From positions 1,491,501-1,555,500 of the forward strand of contig NZ_CP062698.1 in NCBI RefSeq assembly GCF_018389385.1: DNA of 64,000 nt, in the 5' to 3' direction. Made by a program: the position numbers and the translations under genes. The notes under the pieces are model-generated. The model worked only from the letters and a program-made list of their open reading frames with translations, did no database searches and was not told the origin of the DNA. This DNA comes from Anthocerotibacter panamensis C109. GTDB taxonomy: Bacteria; Cyanobacteriota; Cyanobacteriia; Gloeobacterales; Anthocerotibacteraceae. Below are positions 26,716-31,471 of this stretch, piece after piece (positions within the stretch are counted from its first letter, which is position 1; each line of letters begins with the position of its first letter).

Positions 26716-26787
26716 AGCGGGTGATGGGATTCGAACCCACGACATCAACCTTGGCAAGGTTGCGCTCTACCACTGAGCTACACCCGC
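26716..26787 (-). tRNA. tRNA-Gly (anticodon GCC)
   Basis: On the minus strand the 72 bases fold as a cloverleaf: acceptor GCGGGTG pairs with CACCCGC, the D-arm is GCTC/GAGC, the anticodon stem CAACC/GGTTG encloses loop TTGCCAA (anticodon GCC), and the T-arm is GTGGG/CCCAT around TTCGAAT. The discriminator base is T, and CCA is not encoded. Confidence 0.95.
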
Positions 26788-26854: not shown

Positions 26855-27649
26855 TTACGTTCCCCCTGAGAGGTTATCGTCCTCTAAACTGCCATATATG
26901 CCGACCCTTGAAGGTTCCGTTTGCCAGGGAAAATCCGGGAGGGTTTCAATCGAGCGGCGCAGGGCCTGCTGCCAGGTATGCTGGAGTTTGATGAGGTAGG
27001 GGTCGTTGGCCTGTAGGCGGTGACGGTGACTGATCTCGAAGCTATTGGCCTCGTAGATGATGAGGTCCAAAGGTGGTCCCACCGAGGCATTACTCAGAAT
27101 CGTGCTATTCATCGAAAGCATGGCGTACTTGACAGCAGTCGTGAAGAGAGGTGCATCAAAGCGGTAGCCCCGGTCAAGGATCGGTTTGCCGTATTTGCTC
27201 TCCCCCAGTTGTAAGTAGGGGGTTTCGCGGCTGGCTTGGATGTGGTTGCCCTGAGTGTAGATGTGAAACAGCTCTGGAGGCTGTCCTGCCAATTGCCCTC
27301 CGACAATAAAGTTGGGGTTGAAGTTGAAATTGTCCCGCTCGAGGTAGGCGCGGTCGCGGCTCTCCACCAAGCGCAACTTTTCCCCTACATAGTTCGCTAC
27401 CTCATGTAAGGTATCAAAGCTGTGTAAATTGGGCCGTAGCTCCAAGCGCAGATCACGGCGCACAAGGGCGAGCGCTGCCTGCGTTGCGGCACGGTTTCCT
27501 GAGGCCATGAGCACACATACGCGCTCTGTCGGGACAGAGAAGTCAAACAGTTTGGGGTTGGTGTGGATATGATCCACCCCGGAATGGGTCCGAGTATCAG
27601 CCAGCATCACAAGACCCTGGGCATTTAAAAGCGCGAGACAGTAGGTCAT
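26855..27649 (-). CDS. Anbu, bacterial proteasome-like peptidase
   Basis: The 264-residue protein belongs to the Ntn-hydrolase family of proteasome beta subunits and HslV, subtype Anbu. The start MTYCLALL gives an N-terminal Thr after Met removal, which would be the nucleophile, followed by VMLADTRTHSGVDHI and LMASGNRAATQ, typical of Anbu. Known Anbu proteins assemble into large rings or helical stacks, and no ATPase partner is known. In many proteobacteria Anbu sits with ATP-grasp, alpha-E and transglutaminase genes; none of them is adjacent here. Confidence 0.88.
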   Translation of the reverse strand: MTYCLALLNAQGLVMLADTRTHSGVDHIHTNPKLFDFSVPTERVCVLMASGNRAATQAALALVRRDLRLELRPNLHSFDTLHEVANYVGEKLRLVESRDRAYLERDNFNFNPNFIVGGQLAGQPPELFHIYTQGNHIQASRETPYLQLGESKYGKPILDRGYRFDAPLFTTAVKYAMLSMNSTILSNASVGPPLDLIIYEANSFEISHRHRLQANDPYLIKLQHTWQQALRRSIETLPDFPWQTEPSRVGIYGSLEDDNLSGGT

Positions 27650-28319
27650 GGGCCACTAGGGCGCAGGAATGTAACCGAGTATACCAGGGCAAGCTTTACT
27701 CAACTTTGCCCATTTCAAAGAGTTGCAGCTTATGGACTGTGGAATACTTTAGCTAGGGAGATTGACCCCGCCCGCTTCGTTTTTTTTTCAGCGCTACATA
27801 GGTACAGCGGCATAGCTTTATTCTGATAGACCAAATAGCTCAAAGATAGTAAGGGGTATTTAAGTTCTGTACGGAAGATTGTTTTTGATGAGGTAAAGCC
27901 AGCTTATATTTCGGGATATATTTAATACGTAGAATCTCGTGCACTTCAGTCTGTGAATAAACTTTGTATACGGTATTTTCAGTACGCTATATGACGTATC
28001 CTTAAATTGAAATTCTAGTTTCATTTCTGTACTTTAAATCCTGTATTTTCTTAGGTAAACCTTGACTTAATAGAAAGTAGAATCATACGATGTGAATGTC
28101 ATAATTTAGGAAAGAACCTCCTTCTAATCTCCTGGTTATTGTCTGTCTCTGTCTTTAGGATGGAGTTTTTCCCTCGAACCACAAAGTCTGGCTTCTGGTT
28201 CTCAAGTCAGCTAATCACTGGAGTAGTCTTTCAATACGCAGGGTCTTGCAAGCTATTTTTGATAAGTCTATTTGCAAGACTTATACGGTCAACGCTGTAC
28301 CTAAAGGAGGTGCAATCCA
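27650..28319. other. A+T-rich intergenic region upstream of the acyl carrier protein gene
   Basis: This ~670-base stretch is much richer in A+T than its surroundings and holds no convincing gene. Short open frames inside it lack ribosome sites. A sigma70-like promoter can be placed at 28062-28091, leaving a leader of over 200 bases before the acyl carrier protein start. The base composition suggests either a large regulatory region or the edge of an inserted segment. Confidence 0.4.
28062..28091 (+). promoter_or_regulatory. Candidate sigma70 promoter for the acyl carrier protein gene
   Basis: TTGACT at 28062-28067 and TACGAT at 28086-28091 are separated by 18 bases. This is the best -35/-10 pair I found in the A+T-rich region upstream of 28320. 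Confidence 0.35.
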
Positions 28320-28754
28320 ATGTCATCTGAGGATTTTACGAAGACCAATAGTGACCGTGTCCACTCCGTTGTCATTAGTGATCTGGAGAAGGTTTTCACT
28401 CAAGCCTTCTTTGAGATTGTCAGTGACAAGACTGGCTATCCTGTGGAAGTGTTGGAGTTGGATATGAACTTAGAGGCTGATTTAGGAATTGATTCTATCA
28501 AGTGGGTCGAAATTCTCGGGGCCTTTATGGAGCAATTTCCTAACATCCCGCTGACCCTCCCACCAGAACAAGAAATAATCAACCTGCGGACTTTTAGACA
28601 AATCATCGACTATCTCGTGCGGCAGGGACAAGAAGCAGTAGAGGCACAGTCCGCATCCGCGGCTTCCAAATTGGCGACGGACCTCAGCAGACGGTTGACG
28701 ATGTTAAGAATGAATACGCTACGCCAGCGGGGAAAGACCTTGGATGAATCCTAG
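28320..28754 (+). CDS. Stand-alone acyl carrier protein of the PUFA-synthase/HglE type
   Basis: The 144-residue protein has a phosphopantetheine site in LEADLGIDSIKWVEILG (Ser59). This phrase is characteristic of the tandem carrier domains of PUFA synthases and related glycolipid synthases (PfaA, HglE), not of the fatty-acid ACP (DSLD). About 20 N-terminal and 50 C-terminal residues flank one carrier domain; the C-terminal part is basic and helical. A strong AAGGAGGTG site lies ahead of the ATG. No ketosynthase, transferase or other synthase gene is nearby, so its partners must be elsewhere. Confidence 0.82.
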   Translation: MSSEDFTKTNSDRVHSVVISDLEKVFTQAFFEIVSDKTGYPVEVLELDMNLEADLGIDSIKWVEILGAFMEQFPNIPLTLPPEQEIINLRTFRQIIDYLVRQGQEAVEAQSASAASKLATDLSRRLTMLRMNTLRQRGKTLDES

Positions 28755-30598: not shown

Positions 30599-31471
30599 AT
30601 GCAAGCAATTCCCCCGACTTCCAGGCCCGTCAAGTATCTCACCGACCAAGGATTTTGGTTGGCTTGTCTGGCGGTTGCTACAGCCGCTTTTAATCTCTAC
30701 GCAGTGTGGAACGTCCTGCATGATAGTGATACAGTGGCGGTCCATGGCCTCTTTTGGGGAGCGCTGGGGATGCTGGTCTGGCGCAGGCGGCAAGCTTTAG
30801 TCTTGGAGAGTGGCCCGGTGGCGAGCCTGATGGGGAGTTTACTCCTCGTCACCGTAATTCTCAAGTGCGTGCAGTACTACAACTTTTTCACCCAATTGGC
30901 CCCCTTGCTCTGTGCCTTCGGGTTGGCCCTCATCGCTTCGGGCTTCAGCGGACTCAAGCAGTACACCAAGGAACTGCTCCTGATGGCGGTCCTGGTTTCT
31001 ACATTTTTGGTGGAGCTACTCTTTGCGGGCCAACTGCAAATACTCAGCCTTTTCACAGCCCGATTTAGCTACATGATGCTCTGGTATACTGGCTCAGATG
31101 TGGTCCGCCAAGGGACCTATATTCGCTTGCCTACCGGGGCTATCGATGTCTATCAGGGCTGTTCTGGGTTTGAATCGATGATGCAATTGCTCCGGCTGTC
31201 GGTGTTGTTCTTATTTTTGTTTCCTACACAAGCCTTCCAGAAAGTCTTAGTCCCGGTGGTGGGGCTAATCCTGGCGTTTAGTGTCAATGGCATACGGGTG
31301 GCTTTGATGGCCCTGCTGGTGGCTGCAAATAATCAGGAAGCCTTTAAATATTGGCATGAGGGGGATGGCTCCAATCTTTTTTCGGTAGTGACAATGTTAC
31401 TCTTTGGTTTCTTCTGCCGCACGTTTGTCCTTAAAGATGAGGATGAGGACGACCTGGAAGCCCCGTCATGA
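30599..31471 (+). CDS. Cyanoexosortase A
   Basis: This polytopic membrane transpeptidase (290 residues) is thought to recognise PEP-CTERM-like C-terminal signals and process exported, often glycosylated proteins. The exosortase triad is visible: Cys188 in YQGCSGFES, Arg233 in NGIRVALMA and His253 in WHEGDGSNLF. The next gene overlaps the stop by 4 bases (ATGA) and encodes its usual partner, and an HpsJ-type gene follows, so this is the standard cyanoexosortase A cluster. No protein with a clear PEP-CTERM tail is encoded in the window. Confidence 0.9.
   Translation: MQAIPPTSRPVKYLTDQGFWLACLAVATAAFNLYAVWNVLHDSDTVAVHGLFWGALGMLVWRRRQALVLESGPVASLMGSLLLVTVILKCVQYYNFFTQLAPLLCAFGLALIASGFSGLKQYTKELLLMAVLVSTFLVELLFAGQLQILSLFTARFSYMMLWYTGSDVVRQGTYIRLPTGAIDVYQGCSGFESMMQLLRLSVLFLFLFPTQAFQKVLVPVVGLILAFSVNGIRVALMALLVAANNQEAFKYWHEGDGSNLFSVVTMLLFGFFCRTFVLKDEDEDDLEAPS

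Follow-up and report, generated by a model that had tools for sequence, protein, structure and literature searches.

What is the role of an acyl carrier protein (ACP) of the kind that belongs to PfaA (PUFA synthase) and HglE (heterocyst glycolipid synthase), when it is encoded as a protein of its own in a stretch of genome that holds no such synthase? The question is raised by a gene for a 144-residue protein, here called the orphan ACP (positions 28320-28754, forward strand), in the window, that is, the whole stretch of 64,000 nucleotides analysed here (C1:1491501-1555500) from the genome of Anthocerotibacter panamensis C109, which consists of one contig of 4,187,797 bases. Among the open-licence papers listed, and within the portions of their text that were available, no description of a free-standing PUFA- or Hgl-synthase ACP was found.

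Type and predicted structure of the orphan ACP

The orphan gene has an intact frame that opens with ATG, and a ribosome-binding site recognized by eye, AAAGGAGGTG (28303-28312, forward strand), lies 7 bases 5' of this start codon. The sole Pfam domain is PF00550, PP-binding (residues 32-99; 38.2 bits, cut-off 20.8), and from this Pfam stretch, an alignment with synthase ACPs (alignment A2, 42 rows) and the structural matches described below, the ACP core was placed at residues 24-104 (28389-28631, forward strand). The attachment site LGIDSIK occupies residues 55-61, and sequence and alignment alike mark Ser59 (codon TCT, 28494-28496, forward strand) as the residue expected to receive phosphopantetheine. 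The top NCBIfam model is that of PfaA, TIGR02813, which matches residues 12-120 with 84 bits over its ACP stretch (model positions 1294-1399); its cut-off of 1010 applies to the whole protein, and a single domain necessarily falls far below it. The NCBIfam models of AcpP reach at most 27.2 bits, below their cut-offs of 66 or more. In alignment A2, all 6 invariant positions and 15 of the 17 near-invariant ones are kept, the two departures being Leu31 to Phe and Arg62 to Trp. Position 62 is Arg in nearly all rows of that alignment, and the Trp of the orphan recurs there in a Desulfobacterales synthase ACP, the one relative that came from a scan of genome contigs. The orphan accordingly has the ACP fold and the LG(I/V)DSIK site of a PfaA/HglE-type ACP; it does not have the setting of a synthase subunit, in which the ACP lies within a KS-AT-(ACP)n-KR-DH protein, but is a single-domain ORF of 144 aa.

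A tree of 108 ACP rows over 79 columns, which was built without two of the 110 distinct domains (the near copy L067 and a fragment of L065, 61 aa long), places the orphan on the PfaA/HglE side of a branch supported at 98/82. On the far side lie 12 rows, comprising nine AcpP-like sequences with the site LGADSLD, another small-frame ACP (L094) and two sequences from genomes of the same order. With its few columns this tree parts the orphan from AcpP and leaves its exact sister unsettled. Judged by profiles and tree, then, the orphan is an ACP of the PfaA/HglE type and not AcpP. The initial annotation had described a free-standing 144-residue carrier with a PfaA/HglE-type LGIDSIK site and a basic tail, and these points stand: the type agrees with the best NCBIfam model and with the 98/82 branch, the free-standing form with the single ORF and single Pfam domain, and the tail contains the basic stretch DLSRRLTMLRMNTLRQRGK. 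Grouping with ordinary AcpP, which it had named as the outcome that would speak against its reading, is not what the 108-row tree displays.

The AlphaFold model of the orphan (mean pLDDT 80.2, pTM 0.75, from a 2-row alignment) comprises an ACP core, a long N-terminal helix at residues 3-38 and a C-terminal helix at residues 112-143. The latter takes up most of the partly basic tail (residues 105-144; 28632-28751, forward strand), in which DLSRRLTMLRMNTLRQRGK is predicted to be helical. Among the matches listed, those found by structure are mostly carrier proteins or carrier domains, with a best Z of 11.8 and a span of residues 18-108; because Z in helical bundles may reflect a common arrangement, as the tool itself warns, the type assignment rests on the sequence profiles. 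Residues 104-144 alone returned only their self-match at E <= 1 among 3451 frames of the fetched loci, and 15 whole-domain alignments to embedded ACPs extend as far as orphan residues 120-132.

Synthase loci and carriers elsewhere in the genome

Scans with TIGR02813 and Pfam located three PUFA/Hgl-type loci in the genome, all of which have ACPs of their own. Locus 1 (C1:23-40 kb) encodes a KS-AT-ACP protein of 1327 aa, a KR-DH protein of 806 aa, a protein of 1494 aa with two KS regions, a PfaD-type protein of 543 aa and a small ACP of 87 aa, together with a KS-AT-ACP-AfsA protein of 1187 aa on the opposite strand. Locus 2 (C1:3800-3819 kb) encodes a KS-AT-ACP-ACP protein of 1641 aa, a KR-DH protein of 576 aa, a two-KS protein of 1565 aa and a 98-aa small ACP; on the same strand, some 2 kb upstream of the locus, lies the gene for a 933-aa ACP-KR-DH protein (C1:3816362-3819163, reverse strand). 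Locus 3 (C1:1868-1880 kb) also contains a PF01648 transferase gene, of which the genome has two. Within C1:1491501-1555500, the orphan was the only TIGR02813 match among the own-genome matches listed (22 of 31 candidates scored) and the only match to PF00550, and no KR-DH match was obtained in the window at E 0.01. The initial annotation had remarked that no synthase gene surrounds the orphan, which is correct for the window and not for the genome; the protein is an orphan by place only.

In locus 2, the PfaA-type frame KS-AT-ACP-ACP-KR-DH is divided by an in-frame stop (C1:3809472-3809474; L072 7473-7475, reverse strand) into the ORFs of 1641 and 576 aa. Thirty bases past the stop there is an in-frame ATG that has a GAGGAG site, so the split may be a natural fission. 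The tandem ACPs of the same locus (L072 8268-8447 and 8667-8846) are identical across the 76 residues visible in both tblastn alignments, as if recently duplicated or kept alike.

A site-less ACP-KR-DH protein and a shared upstream block

Loss of the attachment site in the 933-aa ACP is well supported. This ACP reads LGVGPNQQ at the position where the locus 1 ACP has LGVDSIKR and the locus 2 ACPs have LGIDSIKR (LEADLGVGPNQQTAIL versus LEADLGVDSIKRVEIL in locus 1); VGPNQ stands in place of IDSIK, which removes the attachment serine together with the residues around it. Identity between the KR-DH part and the KR-DH protein of locus 1 is 69-70%, with a dN/dS of 0.14 at a near-saturated dS of 1.5, and HxxxGxxxxP and KR motifs, which we take to be those of the DH and KR domains, are present by eye and look intact. 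The genome therefore holds an enzyme that matches the orphan and has no working carrier, and such a protein would presumably need one. Elsewhere among cyanobacteria, the second ACP of a synthase frame (L025, genome G070) reads LGIDAVKRREI and is another embedded ACP without the attachment serine.

Among own-genome proteins, only the 933-aa protein aligns from orphan residue 1, the alignments of the other synthase ACPs beginning at orphan residue 26 or 28. The difference is no more than a hint, because only 6 of the 26 N-terminal residues are identical between the two, because a search of 3451 frames from the fetched loci with residues 1-27 alone gave only a self-match at E <= 1 (the 933-aa protein was not found), and because alignments to certain synthase ACPs of other cyanobacteria start at orphan residue 9-12.

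A second likeness lies outside the coding sequences. The orphan gene is preceded by an AT-rich region (27650-28319, forward strand; 39.6% GC versus 55.3% in the window) that includes a promoter-like site and a leader of about 0.25 kb. Pairwise comparison of upstream regions revealed in it a 38-bp block (28029-28066, forward strand), identical at 29 of 38 positions to a block in front of the 933-aa gene; the distance from the end of the block to the start is 254 bp for the orphan ATG and 212 bp for the 933-aa gene. Its score was reached by 1 of 5000 dinucleotide-shuffled pairs and, in a separate set, by 0 of 300. Only two of 629 chunks of 820 bases, taken from the window itself and from 17 fetched stretches of its genome, reached this score of 20 (the next was 17), and these two overlap and both contain the 933-aa upstream region. 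The 20 fixed bases of the block have two exact sites in 4.19 Mb, one before each of the two genes, a count that is not independent by itself since the pattern was derived from both sites; at 3 mismatches one further genome site appears, and a reversed control gave none. The 520 bp in front of the KS-AT-ACP gene of locus 1 and the 1100 bp in front of that of locus 2 score 11 and 12 against the orphan region, with a shuffle mean of 11.9; all scores for these two genes fall between 11 and 14, and the genes are without the shared block. Compared by BLAST with its own genome at E <= 1, the 681-bp orphan upstream region found only itself, and the upstream likeness of the two genes is one short block.

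A promoter-like TTGACT-18-TACGAT (28062-28091, forward strand), a consensus match only, has a counterpart TTGACG-18-TAGCAT upstream of the 933-aa gene, both blocks running into TTGAC-18-TANNNT; promoter-like sites in the orphan region number 3, as against 2.4 expected in shuffles. Because the upstream block is common to both, the orphan and 933-aa genes are probably expressed together. The orphan leader also contains a terminator-like stem with a T run (28147-28165; the 2 found lie within the shuffle expectation of 1.3).

Kinship, distribution and neighbourhood

In tblastn comparisons with fetched own-genome DNA, the orphan matched the locus 1 ACP at 57% over 83 columns, the two locus 2 ACPs at 51% and 54%, and the 933-aa protein at 41% over 103 columns. 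Against the locus 1 ACP, pN is 0.26 and pS 0.73. A second tree over the same number of columns (79), built from a hand-picked set of 47 of the 108 rows that excludes L025_2 and the AcpP rows, unites the orphan with the ACPs of locus 1 and the 933-aa protein (97/79, not starred) and sets four same-order ACPs beside this group with weak support (89/46). In this tree both the orphan row and the 933-aa row sit on long branches, of which the program warned, and pairings of the orphan with the locus 2 ACPs (p-AU 0.209), the 933-aa ACP (0.374) or the locus 1 ACP alone (0.229) are not rejected. Such sequence comparisons support well the view that the orphan has close kin inside its own genome.

Among the matches in eight other genomes of the order, several of them drafts, there is no counterpart of the orphan; the small frames of these genomes reach E values of just 0.014 to 0.094 against it, and a single one that was examined is AcpP-like. 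Neither was a gene of the 933-aa ACP-KR-DH form seen in these eight genomes. Four of them (G388, G389, G390 and G392) have KR-DH proteins that are matched from query residues 106-117, the N-terminal ACP falling outside the match, and G388-G390 have a second set; other matches to the 933-aa protein fall in megasynthases of other type, and a match in G386 starts at the end of its contig. The orphan and 933-aa genes are best explained as lineage-specific copies related to the ACP and KR-DH part of locus 1.

Across the phylum, 67 of 386 genomes yielded matches, and all of those listed except the orphan itself lie in frames of at least 787 aa. When 21 of the 67 matching genomes were searched again, small frames (82-287 aa) appeared only at E 8.8e-6 or weaker; nine small frames reached the domain list, eight with the AcpP-like site LGADSLD and one (L094) with LGIDSVD, distant in the tree. 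The scan of genome contigs for close relatives recovered one, embedded in a 2,768-aa protein. Twelve of 72,556 plasmid records matched the orphan, and no match covered 80% or more of the query; at the matching place five records carry a type I polyketide synthase or SDR oxidoreductase, five show no feature and two are unannotated. No relative was confirmed in viral contigs, and a viral origin was rejected.

Nine proteins around the orphan were scanned, and none of the five with a Pfam family belongs to lipid synthesis. One of the neighbours, cytochrome b561, was recovered from seven of the eight other same-order genomes; in the stretches fetched around it, of at most 1.5 kb on each side, neither an ACP nor any other of the neighbours was found at E 1e-6. 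Of the RNA families sought between 26000 and 30600, a tRNA (26716-26787, reverse strand) is well above its cut-off and two others are below theirs. A 264-aa protein (26855-27649, reverse strand) has no match in Pfam (E 0.001) or NCBIfam (E 1e-5) and by eye resembles a proteasome-type protease. A cyanoexosortase A gene (30599-31471; TIGR03763, 232 bits, cut-off 150) is directly followed by a 225-aa ORF without a Pfam match.

A proposed carrier in trans and its alternatives

The reading that we favour begins with an ACP-KR-DH gene akin to locus 1, which would have been duplicated in this lineage alone. The orphan would have been copied from the ACP of a PUFA/heterocyst-glycolipid-type synthase, the nearest being that of locus 1, to become a separate 144-aa protein. 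Complementary loss would then account for the present forms, the orphan copy ending after the ACP and the 933-aa copy losing its ACP attachment site; that the two genes are each other's copies is suggested mainly by the upstream block. Ser59 would receive its phosphopantetheine from a transferase of the cell, and the orphan would carry acyl intermediates in trans for the 933-aa KR-DH protein, through which it might serve the synthase of locus 2 or locus 1. We tentatively regard it as a real possibility that the orphan is the trans carrier of the site-less KR-DH protein beside locus 2; its loading, the co-expression of the two genes, a physical partnership of their proteins and the product are inferred. 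The broader proposal of divided labour by complementary loss, with the promoter kept in both genes and a two-gene trans-carrier system as its outcome in one cyanobacterial lineage, is somewhat doubtful. The initial annotation had suggested service to a synthase in trans, and the site-less ACP-KR-DH paralogue with its common upstream block now offers a candidate partner, the action in trans itself being presumed. Further considerations temper the proposal. Inactive ACPs within the array of a PUFA synthase still help the synthase structurally, according to one study (PMC5067506), and such a structural use may be why a site-less ACP persists, which weakens the argument from replacement without removing it. 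Moreover, none of the three synthase loci lacks an ACP, so that an ACP acting in trans is not strictly needed.

Part of the same evidence would suit a spare working carrier for locus 1 or locus 2 generally, one that has no particular link with the 933-aa protein. By tblastn the orphan's nearest ACP is that of locus 1, and the yield of PUFA synthases rises with the number of active ACPs, although these were in cis (PMC5067506). We consider this unlikely, however, since it is the 933-aa gene that has the upstream block in common with the orphan, and the KS-AT-ACP genes of loci 1 and 2 score at shuffle level. Distinctly unlikely is a remnant, in which the 5' part of a synthase gene was duplicated and still reads as an open frame without function. 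The long branch and odd composition of the orphan, the two altered near-invariant positions, the lack of a same-form homologue in the eight other genomes and of a KR-DH match in the window would all fit a remnant, but the retention of the remaining ACP positions, the strong ribosome-binding site, a pN far below pS and a modelled ACP fold with a pLDDT of 80 argue for a working protein.

The orphan might instead have been recruited elsewhere, to a local partner such as cytochrome b561 or a nitroreductase, or, by way of its basic helical tail, to a task in structure or signalling. Signalling had also been suggested in the initial annotation, and nothing observed here points to it. The tail alone is unmatched in the fetched loci, and the structural matches listed include free ACPs in other machines (AcpM with MmpL5; an ACP in the FtsHi motor complex). 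Against such a job, which we deem improbable, stand neighbours of which none with a Pfam family serves lipid synthesis and a cytochrome b561 with no ACP found within at most 1.5 kb of it in the seven same-order genomes, and no role can be read from fold matches. Identity with ordinary fatty-acid AcpP is extremely improbable: the general fold is in common, but the AcpP model scores and the 98/82 branch led us to reject it, and the genome already has an AcpP-like gene with the site LGADSLD at C1:3652404.

If the trans-carrier reading is true, the orphan would show how, in nature, a type I lipid megasynthase can cede a carrier domain to a separate protein, and the surviving site-less paralogue would bear witness to it. 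A 2025 survey of about 3,600 cyanobacteria covers hgl islands, among them those of Gloeobacter violaceus and 'cyano 109', for which the product is yet unknown (PMC11804610), and the orphan and 933-aa genes would form a candidate pair in the search for the product of the hgl-type island of Gloeobacterales.

Comparison with known carriers

With the ACP domains of PfaA and HglE the orphan has the LGIDSIK site and the ACP core in common, and among the matches listed in the phylum search its identity to cyanobacterial synthase ACPs is 42-62%, with one row at 41%. PfaA/HglE ACPs, however, lie in frames of 763 to 3,054 aa and are often in tandem, whereas the orphan is free-standing and has an upstream region of its own. 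The small ACPs of locus 1 (C1:22796-23059, 87 aa) and locus 2 (C1:3800266-3800562, 98 aa) are separate proteins like the orphan, but unlike it they have the sites GLTSAQ and GMDSAQ and are encoded at the locus. The tandem ACPs of PigH are fused to a transferase. By sequence they are the best relative of solved structure (PDB 5y08; 44.7 bits with the orphan, 61.9 with the profile of alignment A2), with two ACP stretches in one chain, unlike the orphan. Free ACPs are represented among the structural matches by AcpM of mycobacteria, at a Z of about 10-11.5 and about 20% identity to the orphan; AcpM resembles the orphan in its C-terminal extension and differs from it in being of the fatty-acid type.
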